Positions 2,238 to 36,909 are shown, counted from the stretch's first letter. The stretch: 64,000 nt of DNA from Planctomycetaceae bacterium (GCA_011525745.1 WYBU01000137.1:1-64000), one strand, 5' to 3'. The notes: generated by a model from the sequence alone, not told the origin. Made by a program: numbers and translations.

Positions 2238-3842
2238 TTACGGTTTCGTCGATGCGGGCGGCCGGTCCTTCCAAGCTAGACGTTGAGGGTTCGAGTCCCT
2301 TCGCCCGCTTTTCTTTCTAACGCCGTCAGATTGCGACAGGTTGCGTCCGTTTGCATCTTTTCCCGATGATTTCAGGGGTATCGGACAGTCCGGGGCGTTT
2401 ATTGCCGCGCCGTCCGTTGCGTCAGGTTGCGACGGGTTGCGTTCGGTTCCGTCAGCAAAACCGGTAAACTTTCCGGTAAATACAAGACAGCTTTTGTCGC
2501 CTGTCGGAACCGCGTCCGCCGTCCCCGTCGCCCGTTGCCGGTTCGTCGCCGGTTGCTCGGCGTCCAGCGGGGGCAAGGCGTCGAGGGCCGGGCGCAGGTC
2601 CAATAGCCGTGGGTCCGTGTAGGTCTGCATCGTCAGGTCCAGCTTGGAATGTCGCAGGAATTGCTGCGCCGTCCGGGGGGCCACGCCCGCCCGTGCAAGG
2701 TGCGTCGCGGTCGTATGCCGCATGGCGTGAACGTCCAGCCGCCGGCCGCTTTCATCGACGAACGGAATGCCCGCCGCCGCCAGGTCGCGTTTGAGCACGT
2801 TCACCAGCGCACGCGGCACGTGGAACACTGGGGCCGTCGCCGCCGGGTTGCCGCATTCGGTCCGCCACGCCCGCAACGCCGCCGCCAGGTCATCGCGCAA
2901 CGGCACGCTTTCGGTCCGCCGTCCCTTCGCGTCGCGTGCTTCGACCGTCACGCTCGGCGCGTCCCCGTCCAGGTCCAGCCGCGCCCAGGTCATCGCCGCA
3001 AGCTCGCCGCGGCGCAGGCCGGTATGAACCAGCGTCGTGTACACCAACGCCCGCTCACGCCCGCGACGCTCCAGCTTCGCTATCAGCGTCGGCCGCCGCC
3101 GCAGCGCCCAGCGGCCGCGCTCCGCCGCCGCGTCGATGCCGTCCAGCGTCAGCGGGGCCTTGCGCCACGTATCGCGTCGCTTCGTTCGCTCGGCGTCATC
3201 CTTCGCCACCGATTCGCGCCCGTAGTCGGCCAAGGGGCGCAGCCGGGCGACGTACAGCAGCCGTTGCACTTCGTCATCCGTCATCGACCGCCGCCGCCGC
3301 CGGATGTCCGTCGCTTCGTCGGCCGCGGCCAGCGTCGCCAGCGGGTCGAGGGGCAGCCGCTCGGTTTTGACGCACCAGCGGACGAACGCGCGCATGCTGG
3401 ACAGGTACAGGTTGTACGTCCGGGGGCCGCGCTTCAGTTCCCGCAAGGTTGCCAGGTAGCGCTCGGCTCGCGTCGCGGTAATGTCCGTCAGGCGAATGAC
3501 GCCGGCGTGGTCGAGGAATGCTTGCAATCGCCGCAGGGTTTCGCGTAGATGCTCCGCCGTTACGTCCTTGGCCACAAGGTGCGTTTCGTATTCGCGCACG
3601 TGCTCGCCGACGGGCCGGAGCATTTCATCATCAGCCTTGGTCATCAGGCCGCGTCGCCGTTGCTCCAGCTTGCGGGCAAGCTCGCCCGCCATGAATTGCG
3701 ACGTTGCTTTGTCAACCGACAGCGGCACGCGCTTCGTCCGCCCGTCCGCGTCGGTTGCTTCGCAGTACCACTTGCGGCTCAGCTTCCGCGTTTTCGTTCC
3801 GTCGCCGCGCTTGATGGTGATATGTTGCTTGAAAAGTCGCAC
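2238..3842 (-). CDS. int: tyrosine-family site-specific integrase
   Basis: This 534-residue recombinase would cut and rejoin the 43-bp core to insert or excise the element. An N-terminal core-binding/SAM-like domain (roughly residues 60-180) precedes the catalytic domain (roughly 200-410). Visible motifs are HTGLRRGELAAMTW (box I Arg), DVHAMRHTTATHLA (H-x-x-R), FLRHSKLDLTMQTYTDP (His, then the Tyr nucleophile). The GTG start at 3842 has an AGGTGA ribosome site. The last 22 residues are encoded by the tRNA core (GRRDSNPQRLAWK) and by host DNA beyond it (DRPPASTKP). Residues about 430-510 are low-complexity, and their DNA contains repeats that may be arm-type binding sites. The gene lies 3 nt after the Cro-like gene, so the two are probably co-transcribed. 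Confidence 0.93.
   Translation of the reverse strand: MRLFKQHITIKRGDGTKTRKLSRKWYCEATDADGRTKRVPLSVDKATSQFMAGELARKLEQRRRGLMTKADDEMLRPVGEHVREYETHLVAKDVTAEHLRETLRRLQAFLDHAGVIRLTDITATRAERYLATLRELKRGPRTYNLYLSSMRAFVRWCVKTERLPLDPLATLAAADEATDIRRRRRSMTDDEVQRLLYVARLRPLADYGRESVAKDDAERTKRRDTWRKAPLTLDGIDAAAERGRWALRRRPTLIAKLERRGRERALVYTTLVHTGLRRGELAAMTWARLDLDGDAPSVTVEARDAKGRRTESVPLRDDLAAALRAWRTECGNPAATAPVFHVPRALVNVLKRDLAAAGIPFVDESGRRLDVHAMRHTTATHLARAGVAPRTAQQFLRHSKLDLTMQTYTDPRLLDLRPALDALPPLDAEQPATNRQRATGTADAVPTGDKSCLVFTGKFTGFADGTERNPSQPDATDGAAINAPDCPIPLKSSGKDANGRNLSQSDGVRKKSGRRDSNPQRLAWKDRPPASTKP
2254..2309 (+). pseudogene. tRNA-Gly(TCC) remnant lacking the D arm
   Basis: The 3' part of a tRNA-Gly is clear: anticodon loop CTTCCAA, T arm GAGGGTTCGAGTCCCTT and acceptor strand CGCCCGC followed by T. 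A perfectly matching 5' acceptor strand GCGGGCG lies at 2254-2260, but only six bases separate it from the core, so the D arm is missing. The 5' side of the anticodon stem (CGGTC) no longer pairs with GCTAG. At this length (56 nt) it should not be a working bacterial tRNA. The acceptor match could be chance, but a 7/7 match at the expected end favours a deletion remnant. Confidence 0.5.
2267..2309 (+). repeat. left attachment core (attL), 43-bp direct repeat
   Basis: Identical over 43 bases to 9659-9701, with flanks that differ immediately on both sides. It spans the anticodon loop to the 3' end of the tRNA-Gly sequence, the usual crossover target of tyrosine integrases. The integrase gene reads straight through it on the minus strand. 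Confidence 0.85.
2324..2480. repeat. candidate left-arm integrase binding repeats
   Basis: Two repeat types lie 15-170 bp inside attL. A roughly 30-bp imperfect direct repeat occurs at 2324-2353 and 2420-2449, each starting CGTCAG(A/G)TTGCGAC(A/G)GG. CCGGTAAA occurs twice, at 2461-2468 and 2473-2480, 12 bp apart. The CCGGTAAA pair recurs beside the right core at 9574-9594, which suggests arm-type sites for the integrase. Confidence 0.5.
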
Positions 3843-3845
3843 GGG

Positions 3846-4061
3846 TCACCTGCCTTTTGATTTCGCCCGCTTCGTCGGCCGCAACTCCAGCCCGACCGCG
3901 CGCGCGATTCGCTCGGCGTTGTCCAGCTTGACGCCGCGGCCATAGATGATGAATTCATAGACGCGCCCGTAACCGACGCCGCTTTCGCGCGAAACGTCCA
4001 GCAGCGTTCGGCCGCTGCACTTTACGCGGTCGCGGATGATGTTGCCCCAGGTAGTTTCCAT
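3846..4061 (-). CDS. Cro/C1-type helix-turn-helix regulator
   Basis: A 71-residue DNA-binding protein of the HTH_XRE/Cro type. Helices read IIRDRVKCSG, TLLDVSRESGV as helix 2, then GYGRVYEFIIYGRGVKLDNAERIARAVGLEL as the recognition helix and cap. Its position immediately upstream of int (3-nt gap) on the same strand fits a repressor or an excision regulator of the element. The basic tail (KRAKSKGR) may add DNA contact. The start ATG at 4061 is the only good one. Its exact role, lysogeny repressor or recombination directionality factor, cannot be read from sequence. Confidence 0.8.
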   Translation of the reverse strand: METTWGNIIRDRVKCSGRTLLDVSRESGVGYGRVYEFIIYGRGVKLDNAERIARAVGLELRPTKRAKSKGR

Positions 4062-4092
4062 GCCGACAGTGTATACGCCTACGGATTAGGTG

Positions 4093-5208
4093 TCAAGCGC
4101 CGCCGGCGCCATCGGCGCGGAAACGGTATCGGGTCGCCCGGCACGTTGTGCCGGGTTCCACGATTGCAAGCACGCCGTCGGCAACCAGCATCCGCAACAT
4201 TTTCGCCGCCCGCACGTGGTCGGTGTTCAACTCCGCGGCCGCGAGTCGGCAGGCAATGTAAAACGGTTTGTCCCCCGCCGCCCGTTGCAGGGCCGCGCAG
4301 AGCGCCACCAGTCGCCGGGCCGGTTCGCTTTCATATTGCTCGGCAACGGCGGGCAACGGATGGGAATCGGCATTCATCCGCGCCGTTGCCAGTGCGTCAG
4401 CGCCGACGGGATACTGCACACGACGCCAGGCGTCACAGAAGTCGCCCCAGGTTGTATCCCAGTCCTTTGTACCGATGGTGGGTAACGCCGCGGCGTGCCA
4501 GGCTCTGACGTGTGGGCGCACCGTGTTGGTGTCGGCGTCGGGGAAAAGCCCTTTCAGGTGACGGGCCAGCGCGAACAGCTTCAGGTGACGCTCGCCGGCG
4601 TTGCGGGGCAACGTTGCTTCAATCGCCCGCACGGCATCACCATTTACAGAGCGTACAGAGCGAACAGAGCGAACAGAGCGAACAGAAGAGGTTCTCTGTA
4701 GGCTCTGTACGCTCTGTAAATGGGGGGGATTGAACGCCGAAGCGGGGGCGTTCGGGATGTTGCCGTTAGGATGAATCACCCACTCATAGCGGGGGCCGGA
4801 TGGATGCGCCGATGGGGGAGCTAGAACATACGCGCCGTTACCCCGAATCTCGCCGTCCGCGAAGTTCTTCGATTTCGCGCCTGGGATGATGGCGTACACG
4901 TGAAAGCCGCGCCCGGTTTTGACAGTCGGCAGGCTGCCGGCTAGGTCGGGATGTTCCGACGCCCAGCTTTCGTACGCGCCGGGGGCGTCGAAGTCGCGGA
5001 CGGCCAGGCCGCCGCTCACCCCGCCGAGAATGACTGCAAGGCCGGTTACGCCGGGGCGGGGATTCTCGAACCACGCGCGCACCTGTTCTGCGTTCGCCCG
5101 TTCGGCTTGCCATCGTTTCCACGGCACGGCCGGCCGCTTGTCTCCGCGCGCGGGGATGATGCTCCATCCCCGCGCGGCGTATTCACGAGCCGCGTCCAGC
5201 AACGTCAT
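4093..5208 (-). CDS. bifunctional primase/polymerase (prim-pol) of the element
   Basis: A 371-residue replication protein. The N-terminal half (about residues 1-165) is an archaeo-eukaryotic prim-pol domain: LLDAAREYAARGWSIIPARG at the start, the metal-binding pair DFD in GLAVRDFDAPGAY, then TGRGFHVYA, the usual T-G-x-G-x-H-x-Y motif. A repetitive linker of four SVR units (about residues 175-190) joins it to a helical C-terminal half, which may end in a winged helix (AAKMLRMLVADGVL). There is no P-loop helicase domain, so unwinding must come from elsewhere. The ATG at 5208 is preferred over the one at 5250 because GAAGGAAGAAACCGGA precedes it. The linker DNA is a 9-bp repeat array inside a 21-bp inverted repeat (4641-4722). 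Confidence 0.88.
   Translation of the reverse strand: MTLLDAAREYAARGWSIIPARGDKRPAVPWKRWQAERANAEQVRAWFENPRPGVTGLAVILGGVSGGLAVRDFDAPGAYESWASEHPDLAGSLPTVKTGRGFHVYAIIPGAKSKNFADGEIRGNGAYVLAPPSAHPSGPRYEWVIHPNGNIPNAPASAFNPPHLQSVQSLQRTSSVRSVRSVRSVRSVNGDAVRAIEATLPRNAGERHLKLFALARHLKGLFPDADTNTVRPHVRAWHAAALPTIGTKDWDTTWGDFCDAWRRVQYPVGADALATARMNADSHPLPAVAEQYESEPARRLVALCAALQRAAGDKPFYIACRLAAAELNTDHVRAAKMLRMLVADGVLAIVEPGTTCRATRYRFRADGAGGA
4641..4722. repeat. 9-bp iteron-like array flanked by 21-bp inverted repeats, inside prim-pol
   Basis: Four tandem 9-bp units (T/A)ACAGAGCG at 4645-4680, plus a degenerate fifth, are followed by inverted units. The 21-bp arms at 4641-4661 and 4702-4722 are perfect reverse complements with 40 bases between them. 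The array stays in frame and encodes (SVR)n. It could be an origin-type binding array or a slipped microsatellite. Confidence 0.75.
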
Positions 5209-5293
5209 TCCGGTTTCTTCCTTCGCGTTTCCGCATCGCCCGCCAGGCACGAACCAGCTTCACGCCGTCAGCCGTGCGCGGCGCGATGGTGCA

Positions 5294-5653
5294 CTATTCC
5301 CGCGCAACGGCGCGAAGTTCATCAACGTTTTTGATGCGGCCGAGTTCCGCCAACAGCGTTCGCTTCATGCCGCACCGGCCGGCGTCGATGGTGGTTTCAT
5401 TCAGCAGCCAGACCACGCCAGGCACGCCGAGCAGCGCGGAGATTGCGCGATGCTTATACAAGACGTTTCGTTTCCCACTTAACGAATCGTTCCTATCGAA
5501 AAGGTGCGATTTTTTGCACACTTCGCGCAGCTCCGGCATTAGCACCGGCCGGCCGCGTCGGCGGGGGGGATGCTTCACCGAAACATCGTGCGAACGATTA
5601 AACGCAAACTTTGCGTTTATTGTGTTTGGTCTTGTTCGGGGGGCGGCGCTCAT
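5294..5653 (-). CDS. hypothetical element protein, 119 aa
   Basis: The protein starts with a Pro/Arg-rich region containing PPRRRGRPVLMPELREV and continues into a helical C-terminal half containing KHRAISALLGVPGVVWLLNE and GRIKNVDELRAVARE. I do not recognise a family; the C-terminal part could be a small helix-turn-helix, which is a guess. Its start overlaps the stop of the nuclease-like gene by 4 nt (5650-5653), which points to translational coupling. A gap of 85 bases separates it from prim-pol. Confidence 0.6.
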   Translation of the reverse strand: MSAAPRTRPNTINAKFAFNRSHDVSVKHPPRRRGRPVLMPELREVCKKSHLFDRNDSLSGKRNVLYKHRAISALLGVPGVVWLLNETTIDAGRCGMKRTLLAELGRIKNVDELRAVARE

Positions 5654-6153
5654 GCTTCACCCCCCAGCGGAATAACGCGCGCGATGGCGCGCAACTCGTT
5701 TTCTGGAATAAGAACAACGCTTGCCCGCTTGCCGTCGCCGGCGGGAACCGCGCGAAAACGCCCGGATTCAGCCAGCCGCCGCAGGTCGGCTATGGAAATA
5801 AGTAGCGCATCGGTTTGTAAAACAAACGCCCAGCTTGTTGCCGATGTTCTATAGATGCCGGATGGCCGGCCGCGGTACGATACTTCGACCGCGACGCGGC
5901 CGGTTTCTGCGCAGCGGCCATCGTTCTTTACTTCAATTCGTGCAACCGCCAGCAGGTCCACGTCCGCGCGGCCGTCGGCGCGCCAGCATTCCCAGCCGCG
6001 CGCGCGAAGCCATTGCGCAATCGCTCGCTCGGCGTCATCGCCTGCGCGTTTTGCGGTACGCCAGCTATCGGTGTATGATGGGGATGGAAACGATTTGGAA
6101 TTGCCCGCGCCGTCGTTCGCCGCGACGGCCGGGCGTTTTTTTTCACCGTTCAC
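5650..6153 (-). CDS. PD-(D/E)xK nuclease-like protein (possible Holliday-junction resolvase type)
   Basis: From the GTG at 6153 the product is 167 residues. The pattern fits a PD-(D/E)xK fold: GDDAERAIAQWLRARGW helix with Glu42, then GRADVDLLAV (Asp64 or Asp66), then the strand ARIEVKND with Glu74-x-Lys76. Proteins of this build cut branched or foreign DNA in phages and islands, but the substrate here is unknown. AAAGGGGGC precedes the chosen GTG. The longer frame to 6348 overlaps the next gene fully and is rejected. It overlaps the AlpA-like gene by 11 nt and the following hypothetical by 4 nt, so all three are probably one transcript. Confidence 0.65.
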   Translation of the reverse strand: MNGEKKRPAVAANDGAGNSKSFPSPSYTDSWRTAKRAGDDAERAIAQWLRARGWECWRADGRADVDLLAVARIEVKNDGRCAETGRVAVEVSYRGRPSGIYRTSATSWAFVLQTDALLISIADLRRLAESGRFRAVPAGDGKRASVVLIPENELRAIARVIPLGGEA

Positions 6154-6400
6154 GGCTGCCCCCTTTCTGGAGCGCCCGCCACCGGTCCGCCGGGGGGCAG
6201 CCCGCATGAATCCAGTTCTCAACTTCCTGAGCGCGAAACCGCACGCACCGCGCGCCGAAATTGATGGCCGCCGGGCCGAGTCGCCCGGCGGCGCGCAGCC
6301 GCTCAATGCCGCGCCGAGACAAGCCGAGCATTCCGGCAAGTTCAGCAATCGAAATCAGCGCGGGCGCGGGGGCGTCGAGGGCGGGGGGGTTACTTTGCAT
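6143..6400 (-). CDS. AlpA/excisionase-like helix-turn-helix protein
   Basis: An 85-residue protein with a MerR-like HTH_17 domain at about residues 18-68: ISIAELAGMLGLSRRGIERLRAAGRL followed by the wing segment RFRAQEVENWIHA. In satellites and integrative elements such proteins usually act as AlpA-type activators or as excisionases. The start at 6400 is preferred over the upstream frame because the domain begins right after it and the AGCAATGC context suits the overlap. It overlaps the next upstream gene (stop at 6390) by 11 nt. A second protein of the same class is encoded directly upstream, which is unusual for such a small element. Confidence 0.8.
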   Translation of the reverse strand: MQSNPPALDAPAPALISIAELAGMLGLSRRGIERLRAAGRLGPAAINFGARCVRFRAQEVENWIHAGCPPADRWRALQKGGSRER

Positions 6401-6596
6401 TGCTTCCCCCCCGCGATTCACCAGCAGCGGCGCGCTCGGCGAGCACGCGGCGCACCGCGTCAGGGTTGAAGCGCAACCTACGCCCCACCTTGAGAAATGG
6501 AATCCGGCCGCCGCGCGCTTCCGCGGCCAGCCAGGTGCGCGGCAACTTGAGTTCACGCGCAAGTCCGGGCAATGTTGTAAGCGTTGGAGTTTCCAT
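6390..6596 (-). CDS. excisionase-family helix-turn-helix protein
   Basis: A 68-residue HTH_17 protein: TTLPGLARELKLPRTWLAAE as helix-turn-helix, RIPFLKVGRRLRFNPDAVRRVL as the wing and last helix, the canonical layout of DNA-binding excisionases. METPTL at 6596 is chosen as the start; an upstream ATG at 6614 is possible. It heads a cluster of overlapping genes, and its upstream DNA carries five phased CGTTGTA repeats (6618-6668) that could be its own operator. The pair of tandem HTH_17 proteins may divide the work of activation and excision. Confidence 0.78.
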   Translation of the reverse strand: METPTLTTLPGLARELKLPRTWLAAEARGGRIPFLKVGRRLRFNPDAVRRVLAERAAAGESRGGSNAK

Positions 6597-6617
6597 GCTT
6601 ACAACATACAACACGCG

Positions 6618-6668
6618 CGTTGTACCACCGTTGTAGCAGCGTTGTATTTCCGTTGTATTTCCGTCGTA
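6618..6668. promoter_or_regulatory. five CGTTGTA repeats phased at exactly 11 bp
   Basis: CGTTGTA starts at 6618, 6629, 6640 and 6651, and CGTCGTA at 6662, a constant 11-bp step, so all copies face one side of the helix. Inverted ACAAC units lie next to them at 6601-6613. The array sits directly upstream of the excisionase-like gene at 6596. It could be an operator array or a set of replication iterons. Confidence 0.7.
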
Positions 6669-6679
6669 ATTATGAGAAT

Positions 6680-7348
6680 TCAGGCGGGCTTCAGGCGGGT
6701 TGTACCCTTGCTGTCGCCGGGCACAATCATCGTCCCCCAGGCCGCGCAGCCGCGGAAGATGTCGGGCAGTCTGCTTTCGTCAGTACCAGCTTCAGCCAGA
6801 ATCGTACCGTTCCCTACGTCGGGCGTGCCGTTTTCCCATGCTTCCCACAAAACTTTGACGCAAGGGGCCTGCAACGCCGTGAACGAATAAGCAGTGCCGT
6901 ACCAGTGAACCGAGCGAAAATCCGGGGAATGCCGTGCCGAGGGCATCGCCGCCATCGCGCTCGCCTGCCCCGCCTGCCCGCCGCCGTCAGCGGCGTAGGG
7001 CCGCAATCTCACAATCGCTTCATTCAGTTCGCGCCACTCATCCGAGCCAAACGCCCCCACGTCGCCGGGCCAGTCGCGCCGCACGCGCTCCGCCAGCGCG
7101 TCCAGCGCCGCGCATGCAGCGCGAACGCACGCCGTCGCGTCGCCGCCAAGCCGGGCCGCGTGCAATATCGCCGCGTCGCAAAGCGTGGCGGGAATTTGCG
7201 CCGCCGCGCAAAGCTCGTTGTATTTCGCTATCGCCTGCTCGCGCACCGCATCATCGGCCGCCAGGCCGCCGCGAAGCTCGGACGCATCAATCAGCCGGTC
7301 CCGTGAATCAATCAACTTAATTACTACAGAATGTATCGCTTGTGACAT
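6680..7348 (-). CDS. hypothetical element protein with planctomycete-type C-terminal domain
   Basis: This 222-residue protein starts with helices (IHSVVIKLIDSRDRLIDASELRGG) and has an Ala-rich central region. Its C-terminal 70 residues begin SPDFRSVHWYGTAYSFT, continue with VKVLWEAWENGTPDVG and close with FRGCAAWGTMIVPG. I remember this tail as recurring in hypothetical proteins of planctomycete mobile DNA, where it looks like a small winged-helix module; no function is established to my knowledge. It lies upstream of the phased CGTTGTA repeats and downstream of a strong terminator, so it may begin its own transcript. Confidence 0.65.
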   Translation of the reverse strand: MSQAIHSVVIKLIDSRDRLIDASELRGGLAADDAVREQAIAKYNELCAAAQIPATLCDAAILHAARLGGDATACVRAACAALDALAERVRRDWPGDVGAFGSDEWRELNEAIVRLRPYAADGGGQAGQASAMAAMPSARHSPDFRSVHWYGTAYSFTALQAPCVKVLWEAWENGTPDVGNGTILAEAGTDESRLPDIFRGCAAWGTMIVPGDSKGTTRLKPA

Positions 7349-7480
7349 GCTACACCTGTGCGGGCCGGGCCGACGCGACAGTCGGCCAGGTGTTGAACCG
7401 CCTGCCGCGTCAACCTTCCGGCGGGTTGCAAATCCGCCGTTCCCGCTGAAAGTCTACCGCCCCGCCGCCCCGCCGCCAAC

Positions 7481-7523
7481 AAAAAACCCGCGACATGGAG
7501 CAACACGCTCCGCGCCGCGGGTT
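7481..7523 (-). terminator. rho-independent terminator after the small terminase gene
   Basis: Reading the minus strand, AACCCGCG (7523-7516) pairs with CGCGGGTT (7492-7485), an inner stem GGAGC/GCTCC extends it, and a run of six T follows (7486-7481). It lies 12 bases after the stop of the gene at 7535 and separates the terminase part of the element from the regulatory and replication part. Confidence 0.85.
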
Positions 7524-7534
7524 GCTCTACGTCA

Positions 7535-7954
7535 TTACCGCACAAAAAACGGCGGCGCCTCATCCGCCGGGGCCGCGTTGCCGAGCCGCAACCGCCCCGC
7601 GGGCGTCAAACCTATTGCGAGTGAAAATATCCGCAATTGCCGCGTAAGGTCCGACACAATCTTCGCTTCGGGCACGCGCTCGCCGTGCTCGCGCACGTGA
7701 CGTACCGCGCGAATCAGCCGCGCCCACGTAAGCGCGTACACACTCAAAACAGCACGGTCGGCAAGCGTTAGGTCGCCGCGTTGCTCAAGTTCATCCGCCG
7801 CATCCCCCCACGCCGCCAGCGCGTCGGCGTCGTCCGTAACTTCCGCCGGCGGGTCCGGTCGGCCACGCGGAAAATGAAAAGCCGGCCGTGGTCGCCTGCC
7901 GCTGCGGTCGGCCTTGAGCCACGTGGGCAGCGGCGGAGGTCCTCTTAATCCCAT
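7535..7954 (-). CDS. terS: P27-family phage terminase small subunit
   Basis: A 139-residue protein with the layout of P27-type small terminases: MGLRGPPPLPTWLKA at the N-terminus, then a Pro-rich segment, AAWGDAADELEQRGDLTLAD, the helix AVLSVYALTWARLIRAVRHV, a short variable region, and a final helix with the family-typical GLTPAGRLRLG. Small terminases recognise the packaging site and hand the DNA to the large subunit. The large subunit, portal and capsid genes are absent, as in satellites that redirect a helper phage's packaging. It ends just before a strong terminator. Identity of the family is fairly sure; the hijacking role is inference from context. Confidence 0.82.
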   Translation of the reverse strand: MGLRGPPPLPTWLKADRSGRRPRPAFHFPRGRPDPPAEVTDDADALAAWGDAADELEQRGDLTLADRAVLSVYALTWARLIRAVRHVREHGERVPEAKIVSDLTRQLRIFSLAIGLTPAGRLRLGNAAPADEAPPFFVR

Positions 7955-8051
7955 GTTTCACCCTTTCTGTTCAAAACCACCGAGTTTATTTGCGCGGGGT
8001 GGGTGCGGTCCCCCGCCCCGCCGTTTTATAGAAATTCGACCCCCCTCCCCC

Positions 8052-8414
8052 CTAGGGCCGTCCTTCCAATTCCCGAATCCTGCGCTCCCGCCATGCCGGG
8101 TCCGCCGCTTTCAACGTGCAGCGCGTCAGAACCGGCACGCGGCCGGTGCGAACCTGCGCACCGCTCACGCCGCCGGCGTCGAACGCCGCACGCTGAATCC
8201 GCCGCACTTCATCCCATTGCAACGCCGTGTATCCTTCACGCGTCACGTCCGCAAGGAATCGAACGATGGCGCGCTCATTCGTGCCGCATCGCCGCGCGAC
8301 ATCAGCAACGGGAATCTTTTTGTCGAGAATCAGCGCGGCAGTCATTCGCGCCGCGTCCCGCAGCATCGCCGCCCGATGCGACGATGAAGCAAAAACCGCT
8401 CGCTCAACTTGCAT
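8052..8414 (-). CDS. small HTH-like hypothetical protein of the element
   Basis: From the ATG at 8414, preceded by AGGCGGTG, the product is 120 residues. The middle segment LDKKIPVADVARRCGTNERA resembles a helix-turn-helix, and VRFLADVTREGYTALQW follows it. The C-terminus is basic and charged. I cannot name a family. It lies between the coiled-coil gene and the terminase gene, so a role in packaging or in late regulation of the element is possible but unproven. About 100 bases of GC-rich dyad sequence separate it from terS. Confidence 0.6.
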   Translation of the reverse strand: MQVERAVFASSSHRAAMLRDAARMTAALILDKKIPVADVARRCGTNERAIVRFLADVTREGYTALQWDEVRRIQRAAFDAGGVSGAQVRTGRVPVLTRCTLKAADPAWRERRIRELEGRP

Positions 8415-8458
8415 GGTTTCACCGCCTTTCATCCCGATTATACCCACCAATTCGGATA

Positions 8459-9190
8459 TCAAACGTCGAAACCCTGCCGCCGCACATGCTCAAGAAACAG
8501 CGCTGAAACCGTCGGGTTCACAACATCGCCCGTCGCCGTGCGTTCCACCTGCGTGCCGCGAAGCTCGTACGGAACCAAAACATTGCCCAGCGTGTCGTCC
8601 GCAACCCGGTAGCCGCTCAACTCGAAAGCCGAGCGCAAGCGCGACAGCAAAGGGTCAATCCGCTGGCAAACTTTGATGGCCATGCACAACACTTCAACCG
8701 CCGCCGCAAACGTCGGCCGCACCGCCGCCGCCGCGTCGCCGCTTTCCGCCAGCACAGCGCGGCGCAGCGTTTCCCGTTCCCGCGTAATTGCCCGGTCCAG
8801 CACCTTGCAAGCGTGCTCCACATCGGCGAGTTCATCCCGCTTCGCGCGCAAGCTCTTCATCGCTTGCGCCGGGTCGGCGCCGTCGGCCACGGCGTCCGCC
8901 TGTGCGTCGAGGTCGCGCGCCCGGGCTTCGGCGTCCGTGATTTCCCCCCGCAGCGTATCCGCCTTCCGGCGTGCGTCGGACAGTTTCTCGCCGAGCGCCG
9001 CCAGCCGTTCGCGTGCCGCCAGCGTCGCCGGGCTTTGGGGTTCCGGCACGCGGCATCCCCAGTCGATGCGCGCCGCCGCATCCGTCAGCCGCGTCAGCAG
9101 CGTGGCCAGTTCGGCCGCCGGGTCGTCCGTCGCCGCCGCCTCGTCCGTCGCCGGGGTCATGCGTTGCGTCTTCGTCTTCGTCGCCATCAT
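8459..9190 (-). CDS. coiled-coil hypothetical protein of the element
   Basis: A 243-residue protein. An acidic Ala/Asp/Thr-rich N-terminus (residues 10-35) leads into a long heptad-like helix from about 60 to 150 (LAARERLAALGEKLSDARRK, then further Arg/Glu/Leu/Ala repeats), and a compact C-terminal domain containing AAAVEVLCMAIKVCQRIDPLL and a final GFDV. The build recalls scaffold or structural accessory proteins of phages but no motif proves it. AAAGGCAGG precedes the ATG at 9190. It is the first gene of the element's transcript as read from the right end. Confidence 0.62.
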   Translation of the reverse strand: MMATKTKTQRMTPATDEAAATDDPAAELATLLTRLTDAAARIDWGCRVPEPQSPATLAARERLAALGEKLSDARRKADTLRGEITDAEARARDLDAQADAVADGADPAQAMKSLRAKRDELADVEHACKVLDRAITRERETLRRAVLAESGDAAAAVRPTFAAAVEVLCMAIKVCQRIDPLLSRLRSAFELSGYRVADDTLGNVLVPYELRGTQVERTATGDVVNPTVSALFLEHVRRQGFDV

Positions 9191-9382
9191 TCATCCTGCC
9201 TTTCATCGTTCGCCGGCCGCCAATTCAGCCGGGTTGTTAGCGTTAACAAAGTCCCCGCCGCCGTGCAGCGCCGCCGGCGGCGGGGCAACCGCCCGCACGG
9301 TGCGGGCCGGGTTGTTCTCAATCCCCCCGCCGAGCCGGGGCCAGGCACGGCCGCCGGCCGGCGGGTCGGTGCACCCCCTGCT

Positions 9383-9658
9383 TTATCCCTTTCCCGCCGC
9401 CCGCGCCATCGCCAGGGCCGCCGCGCGAATCGCCGCCGGCAGGCTCGGCCAGCGTTCAGCAAGCTCCGCAAGCTCCCCGTCAAGCTCGCGCAAGGCCGCC
9501 ACGATGCCCGCCATGTCGGGGCCGGACGTGGCGTCGCCGGAATCGCCGCTTGCGGCATCGGCCGATGGGCCATCCGGTAAAGCGTTCCGGTAAACAGGGT
9601 CGGCGGGTTGCTTGTAAGTCTTTGCAGCTTCGTTACTTGCAATCGGGGGTTCACTAGC
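9383..9658 (-). other. alternative integrase C-terminal tail when the element is circular
   Basis: Reading out of the right core on the minus strand in the same frame as int, 91 codons stay open: ASEPPIASNEAAKTYKQPAD follows the shared GRRDSNPQRLAWK, and the frame stops at 9383. When the ends join in the excised circle, int would continue into this segment in place of its nine host-derived residues. A shorter independent frame from an ATG at 9514 (43 residues, starting MAGIVAALRELDGELAEL) is also possible. No other gene is visible between 9191 and 9658. Confidence 0.6.
9574..9594. repeat. candidate right-arm integrase binding repeats
   Basis: CCGGTAAA occurs at 9574-9581 and 9587-9594, 13 bp apart and 65 bp inside the right core. 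The same octamer is paired near the left core at 2461-2480. Matched pairs at both ends fit arm-type sites. Confidence 0.5.
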
Positions 9659-9701
9659 CTTCCAAGCTAGACGTTGAGGGTTCGAGTCCCTTCGCCCGCT
9701 G
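9659..9701 (+). repeat. right attachment core (attR), 43-bp direct repeat
   Basis: A perfect copy of 2267-2309. Here the anticodon stem CTAGC/GCTAG is complete, but no D arm or matching 5' acceptor strand precedes it, so this is not a functional tRNA. The remaining stretch to 9835 holds no gene. Confidence 0.85.
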
Positions 9702-35794: not shown

Positions 35795-36909
35795 TCTCCG
35801 ACGGCGCCGCGTCACAGAACGCCGAGTTGCCTCCATCGACGGCCATGCGAGAGCGGTTGAACGAGCGGATGCGCCGCGTGCTGGAGCTGCCTCTCGATCC
35901 GCACGGCGGGTCGGAATATTGGCTCGAACGGCAACGCGCCGCCGGATTCGATTTTCGCAGGGAGATTCGCGATGTGAGTGACTTGTCGCGCCTCGGCACG
36001 ATGACGCCCGACGCGCTTGCCGCGCGTCCGCTGTCGTACTTTGTTCCCCGCTCGCTGCACGCCACGCGGCGAGACTGGATTCTCGCGCAGACCGGCGGAA
36101 CGACCGGCCGGCCGGCGTGGTCCGCTTACCTTCGCGATGAGTTTGAAGAAGCGTTCGTCGTTCCGTTTCTCACCGCGGCAGCGCACGTCGGCTTCCCGCG
36201 CGGCGAGCCGTGGCTGTACGTCGGACCGAGCGGACCGCACATCATCGGCCGGGCGGCGGTCGCGCTGGCGCGCGGCATGGACAGCGGCGATCCGTTCATG
36301 GTCGATTTCGATCCGCGCTGGGCGAAGAAGCTGCCGCCCGACAGCTTCGCGGCGCAACGATACCTCGAACACGTCGTCGCTCAGTCGCTCGATGTGCTGA
36401 CGCGGGAGCCTGTCGGCGTGCTGTTCACGACGCCGCCTTTGCTGGCGGCGCTGGCGGCGCGCATGAACGACGCGGCGCGCGGGCAAATCCGCGGCGTTCA
36501 CTACGGCGGGATGCGCGTGGCGCCGGCCCTGTTGCGTCAGGCACAGGTCGAGTGGTTTCCCGGCGCCGTTCACCTGTCCGGCTACGGCAACACGCTGTTC
36601 GGCTGCTGCCTCGAATTGATTACGTCGCCCGGGCGCACGCCCACTTATTTTCCCTGGGGCGAACGGCTGTGGTTCACGGTTCAGCCGGGCAGCCAGGACG
36701 GCGAGATTGCGCCGAACATGCTCCCGCCGCGCGGCCGCGTCGCGTTTACGCGGCTGGATGAAACAATGCTGATCATCAACATGCTCGAACGCGACGAAGC
36801 ATCGCTGGTGAATTGTCCGGCGGAAGCGCCGGCCGGGTTCGGGCTGCCCGGCTTGCACGATCCCGGCCCCCTCGCCGATGCGGCGCTGGTCGCAGCCGGA
36901 CTGTATTGA
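35791..36909 (+). CDS. adenylating-enzyme (PaaK/LuxE-like) homologue, short
   Basis: A 372-residue protein. The ANL core is visible: AQTGGTTGRPAW (P-loop), VGPSGPHIIG, HYGGMRVAPALLRQA, then the A5-like SGYGNTLFGCCLE, and LPPRGRVAFTRLDET. The C-terminal lid domain with the catalytic Lys, present in phenylacetate-CoA ligases (about 430 aa), is missing. It may therefore activate an acid without thioesterification, act as LuxE-type acyl transfer protein, or need a partner. Its ATG overlaps the previous stop (ATGA). An upstream ATG at 35758 is rejected. Confidence 0.7.
   Translation: MISDGAASQNAELPPSTAMRERLNERMRRVLELPLDPHGGSEYWLERQRAAGFDFRREIRDVSDLSRLGTMTPDALAARPLSYFVPRSLHATRRDWILAQTGGTTGRPAWSAYLRDEFEEAFVVPFLTAAAHVGFPRGEPWLYVGPSGPHIIGRAAVALARGMDSGDPFMVDFDPRWAKKLPPDSFAAQRYLEHVVAQSLDVLTREPVGVLFTTPPLLAALAARMNDAARGQIRGVHYGGMRVAPALLRQAQVEWFPGAVHLSGYGNTLFGCCLELITSPGRTPTYFPWGERLWFTVQPGSQDGEIAPNMLPPRGRVAFTRLDETMLIINMLERDEASLVNCPAEAPAGFGLPGLHDPGPLADAALVAAGLY

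Follow-up and report, generated by a model that had tools for sequence, protein, structure and literature searches.

A tRNA-integrated island of a planctomycete as a probable cos-type phage satellite with its own small terminase and a candidate packaging site

The window, that is, the whole stretch of 64,000 nucleotides which was analysed, contains a 7.4-kb island which, judged on its sequence, is likely to be a cos-type phage satellite, equipped with its own small terminase (TerS) and packaging site and borrowing the large terminase (TerL), the HNH nuclease and the capsids of a helper phage. On entry of such a helper, the HTH proteins together with the integrase would excise the island and the PrimPol protein would help its replication. 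The island's own TerS would then bind its own site and recruit helper TerL and HNH nuclease to the satellite DNA, for packaging in helper particles and integration at the tRNA-Gly(TCC) of the next cell. A satellite had already been proposed in the original prediction, and the proposal is now supported by sister islands without TerL and by a candidate for the packaging site; the length of the island, small even for a satellite, was counted against it. The occurrence of sister islands in the same and in other genomes suggests a group of hitchhikers so far undescribed for these bacteria.

The limits of the island are set, as previously claimed, by direct repeats of 43 bp (2267-2309 and 9658-9700, plus strand), which a repeat comparison within the window found to be exact and which represent the 3' part of tRNA-Gly(TCC). 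In the 5.4-Mb host genome this 43-bp sequence has three occurrences, namely the two window copies and one within the intact tRNA-Gly(TCC) gene of contig C18. Directly behind the intact tRNA lies another element, element A (L004), which encodes an integrase, a DUF1580 protein consistent with an assignment to the Planctomycetota, and a RepB-primase/DUF3987 helicase, shares the tRNA target of the island and is devoid of TerS in the 5.5 kb visible. The layout is likely to be a tandem one, running from tRNA-Gly through element A, att, island and att to the chromosome. Contig sequence overlap at the C18-C128 junction was sought and none was found, and the empty-site comparison did not recover the site in relatives, where the tRNA-Gly flanks are non-syntenic. 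Alternatively, the window repeats might enclose two elements joined into a composite, or a mis-assembled stretch, and not a single unit: the tRNA 5' half is absent from both copies, the contig extends no more than 2.3 kb to the left of the repeat and the real tRNA-Gly on C18 adjoins another integrase. Nevertheless, the tandem array is the simpler account, and a second element of the same size and with the same module exists in the genome, so that a composite can hardly be credited.

Every called gene of the island lies on the minus strand, in agreement with the single-strand layout first described. Profile searches recovered the expected tyrosine integrase (2238-3842, 534 aa; PF00589, E 1.4e-17; phrog_1, 6.5e-43) and the prim-pol, a PrimPol replication protein of 385 aa (4093-5250; Prim-Pol PF09250, 5.9e-23). 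The two HTH_17 proteins of the original prediction were also found, as an AlpA-like regulator with the domain in its C-terminal half (6143-6562, ORF limits; PF12728, 2.3e-08; phrog_66, 3e-08) and as a second, excisionase-like protein of 74 aa (6390-6614; phrog_1840, 5.4e-06), the PF12728 match of the latter (1.2e-05) falling slightly below the cut-off. Two other assignments stood in part. The supposed Cro-like regulator, a small Cro/repressor-like HTH protein of 71 aa (3846-4061), did match phrog_4268, but weakly (E 0.04). For the PD-(D/E)xK-like protein (5650-6348, ORF limits; phrog_13596, 1e-11), whose true start is probably near 6150, the motif VDLL..IEVK was read by eye, with a weak profile match to UPF0102. 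Family profile searches gave no match for the hypothetical 119-aa product of 5294-5653, called as an ORF only. Downstream of TerS, p222 (6680-7348) has homologues in two of the related loci treated below, L115 and L186 (35-38% identity, tblastn 3.7e-23), and is not confined to satellites, a related stretch being present in one 54-kb viral contig. A relationship between p222 and p233, the protein after TerS in element 2, could not be demonstrated.

The packaging module is an operon-like run of a coiled-coil gene, an HTH gene, the cos-like site and TerS, ending in a terminator. In what follows the window island is designated E1, element 2 of the same genome E2, and two islands of genome G052 E3 and E4. 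TerS (7535-7954, 139 aa) is of the P27 type, as had been claimed: it exceeds the gathering score of Terminase_4/P27 PF05119 (44.3 bits against a cut-off of 24.7; E 2.4e-11), matches phrog_83 (3.3e-19) and is 86% identical to the TerS of E2, although its 35.1 bits with NCBIfam TIGR01558 lie under the cut-off of 45.6. Directly past TerS, a hairpin followed by a U run (7481-7523, minus strand; -31 kcal/mol, folding z = -4) bears out the strong intrinsic terminator. The remaining parts of the module, like the passage of the integrase frame through the repeat, were absent from the original prediction. The HTH_23-like protein of 136 aa (8052-8462; PF13384, 3.7e-04, below the cut-off) is 53% identical to its counterpart in E2, and its gene occupies the position where prophages often have an HNH gene. 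The coiled-coil protein of 243 aa (8459-9190; 79% identical to that of E2) is known solely from the two islands of the host genome; no credible relatives were found in 392 genomes of the phylum, in phages or in plasmids, and its structure model (pLDDT 49) was too poor for a fold search. Purifying selection acts on all three genes, with dN/dS values between E1 and E2 of 0.24 for TerS, 0.36 for the coiled-coil gene and 0.39 for the HTH gene.

The 96 bp located 5' of TerS (7955-8050, minus strand, core 7971-8014) are non-coding, and E1 and E2 are identical there at 82 of the 98 aligned positions; the host genome holds only two copies of the site sequence. In prophages of relatives, the gap upstream of TerS carries ...CGCAC...TTCGAGGGTTTTGNNATAGGGGGG, a PF03354-type TerL adjoins TerS on its 3' side, and an HNH-like ORF precedes the site in seven of the 11 loci tested, this ORF being found in none of the islands. 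In the linear record of Gordonia phage Kita, TerS begins at base 56, and 52 bp separate the end of the HNH gene from the right-hand terminus, which places the ends of the Kita genome between HNH and TerS. A position weight matrix (PWM) was built from ten prophage-type sites, two of them (L050 and L054) from loci that gave no TerL. Among about 14,800 positions, this matrix ranked a site 30-31 bp upstream of TerS first in both E1 and E2, and in E3 and E4 the first rank fell on a site at the TerS start. With L050 and L054 omitted, the site stayed first in E1 and E2 under the eight-site matrix and came second in E3 and E4. For each element, between 2 and 11 of 300 column-permuted matrices had their top match in the 70 bp preceding TerS. 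The island sites score 6-12 bits against 22-44 for prophage sites, and a full-length nhmmer model misses the island site. Moreover, the independent observations of the site amount to about two, since E1 and E2 share ancestry there and likewise E3 and E4. The candidate adjoins TerS and resembles the prophage site of relatives, and because that prophage site lies where the Kita record has its ends, the sequence 5' of TerS is probably a diverged cos-like site, which is not the same as a proven cos.

No match to TerL, portal, capsid or tail was obtained in profile searches of the main ORFs of the island, in line with the absence of these genes reported earlier; structural or lytic genes, own capsid genes included, were likewise not found among the ORFs searched. 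PF03354 TerL was not found in the host genome G000 either and was present in all seven comparison genomes, so that the island would have to rely on a helper from outside, G000 being a 92% complete MAG in which such an absence is no proof. The search for the portal PF04860 was uninformative, as it gave no match in those comparison genomes that possess a prophage TerL either. The sole phrog_2 TerL of G000 (C62:57239-58642, L052), with similar-scoring matches in many relatives, was rejected as a prophage TerL since it sits among chromosomal genes; this lone TerL-like gene is perhaps a domesticated terminase.

The original prediction expected homologous elements of similar gene order, and the closest relatives found are indeed islands without TerL, namely E2, E3, E4, L115 and L186. 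E2 (C127 42866-50316, 7.4 kb) lies at tRNA-Ser(GCT) between 67-bp repeats that are 90% identical. It shares with E1 the coil, HTH and TerS module, at 75% DNA identity over 2 kb, and beyond it carries HTH_17, a DUF3987 helicase and an integrase 30% identical to that of E1. G052, from another family within the same order as the host, contains E3 (L055 7353-15626, 8.2 kb; tRNA-Gly-type 45-bp repeats, 98% identical) and E4 (L113 1015-8977, 7.9 kb; intact tRNA-Asp and perfect 45-bp repeats). Both have an integrase and a primase/helicase, with TerS lying towards the far end, and neither has a TerL. The TerS proteins of these two are 87% identical, and their gene order is unlike that of E1. In the complete genome G012, L115 shows TerS, p222 and an integrase at tRNA-Arg, and no TerL. 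L186, a viral contig of 10.7 kb from IMG/VR, was recovered by a scan with a wider TerS alignment and reads ParB, a 259-aa protein, PAPS reductase, TerS, TerS, p222, HTH_17, a 373-aa protein, DUF3987 and integrase. It has the E1 order of TerS, p222, HTH_17, replication and integrase genes, and contains no TerL when its genes are read one by one, the TerL model being narrow and its null result in IMG/VR loci uninformative. Pattern scans for TerS, PrimPol and the coiled-coil protein in viral and genome contigs gave no matches.

These relatives bear on the idea of a decayed prophage which kept integrase, primase and TerS and lost TerL and all virion genes. TerS is indeed of phage origin, with distant relatives in prophages, and TerS copies of G012 and G068 that lack both TerL and a clear integrase may be remnants. 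However, TerL was found beside TerS only in those distant prophages and not in the close relatives, where a deleted prophage would have led one to expect it. Two genomes each hold two islands of the same pattern, with att repeats and open genes; terS is under purifying selection and the integrase and replication modules differ between islands; the prophage loci contain nothing equivalent to the coil and HTH genes; and the viral contig repeats the gene order. Decay of a prophage is, in view of this, considered unlikely. A second possibility is an integrative element of the ordinary kind, mobilised by conjugation or circulating by itself, in which the TerS-like protein would be a DNA-binding regulator with no part in packaging. 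Its HTH_17, PrimPol, DUF3987 and integrase modules are common in many such elements, and element A has such genes at the same tRNA. Nevertheless, no relaxase or mobilisation gene was matched in the island, TerS is common to all the islands described and a prophage-like site precedes it, which makes this possibility rather improbable.

Several other loci were recorded in the course of the survey. Contig C1 of G012 bears four TerS copies (near 36779, 682135, 2568118 and 3378745); of these, the loci at 682135 and 3378745 were read, and both have ParB-like, cytosine methylase and methyltransferase genes ahead of TerS and no TerL behind it. At L050/L111 (G002:C1:1877309), an HNH-like ORF, a prophage-type site and TerS are followed by chromosomal genes without TerL; an integrase was not found there, and about 17 kb upstream there is a resolvase-like gene. 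L042 (G088:C101) has TerS beside QueE/FolE-like genes on a 9-kb contig in which Cas3-like and CRISPR-repeat-like sequence was read by eye. TerL proteins of about 910 aa, each with an inserted stretch, are encoded at L048 1720-4449 (G005) and L051 7008-9731 (G014); the stretch in the G005 protein matches LAGLIDADG_3, an intein-like insertion in a prophage terminase.

The integrase gene has its stop codon outside the repeat, its C-terminus being encoded across att in a frame that exits the island. A displaced integrase tail with a WPSLP motif (9383-9657, minus strand) is in frame with the integrase across the circle junction, and the joined frame of 616 aa runs into it, attP thus lying inside the integrase frame (2238-2309, 9383-9657; L081-L110). 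In E2 the frame likewise crosses att, with a different integrase and tRNA. The free circle would encode the integrase with its predicted WPSLP tail, and insertion at the tRNA would remove the tail. Within the order, 77 of 114 genomes contain matches to the tail family, often just past antisense tRNA 3' ends; an antisense tRNA T-arm motif was found upstream of 8/17 tail ORFs examined, against 63/850 control windows. In G012, two of the four TerS copies are likewise preceded, at a distance of about 4 kb, by a WPSLP tail. A broader proposal, of widespread tiny cos-type satellites whose private TerS and cos have co-diverged to out-compete those of the helper, and whose integration, in the branch to which this island belongs, switches the integrase by cutting its tail off, is put forward tentatively, as possible and somewhat doubtful. 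In mycobacteriophage BPs the protein altered by integration is the repressor, whereas in the island the integrase C-terminal tail would be exchanged. As outlined in PMC4557955, the integration-dependent immunity of BPs has the attachment site in the switch, and integration alters a protein.

Among the papers searched, none joins phage satellite and planctomycete, and a 2024 review names satellite families of other groups only (PMC11389934). PICMI, VEIMEs and tycheposons, recently named and in some cases small and minimal (PMC11389934), belong to other hosts. The island agrees in part with the description of PICIs in PMC6092414. Like PICIs, it showed no structural or lytic genes in the ORFs searched. 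PICIs keep an integrase, a replication module and a master regulator in a conserved order; genes of all three kinds are present in the island, all on one strand, and the PICI master regulator was not recognised; PICI att sites are those unused by prophages, and tRNA-Gly(TCC) is also occupied by element A; PICIs typically measure 12-15 kb (PMC6092414), above the 7.4 kb found here. As in pac-type SaPIs and PICIs with TerS, a private TerS would recruit helper TerL (PMC5052747); in contrast to them, the TerS of the island is of the P27 family, found beside HNH genes and cos-like sites, and headful packaging is without support in the island. The anatomy described (tRNA att, integrase, primase/helicase, TerS, no TerL, 7-8 kb) is in itself a search recipe for more such elements. 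cfPICIs produce their own capsids. The island resembles them as a satellite with phage-like packaging genes (PMC11389934), and differs from them in having no capsid genes of its own.

The closest likeness is to satellites of the cos sort. The cos-type SaPIs (SaPIbov4/5) and EcCICFT073 are packaged by cos helpers via a helper-like cos (PMC5052747, PMC6092414), and the island has, like them, an integrase and replication genes and no self-sufficient particle set. Cos-type SaPIs share their cos with a helper phage; the candidate site of the island resembles the prophage sites of relatives. It is, however, smaller (7.4 kb against 12-15 kb) and without recognised capsid-resizing or interference genes. 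Furthermore, all that SaPIbov5 retains of terS is the 3' part (PMC5052747), and TerS is missing from EcCICFT073, whereas the island has an intact P27 TerS adjoining the candidate cos site. The island, which is not classed as a PICI, resembles a cos-sort satellite and probably functions as one, and with a TerS and a cos-like site of its own side by side it offers a compact and testable model of how cos packaging may be redirected by a hitchhiker.
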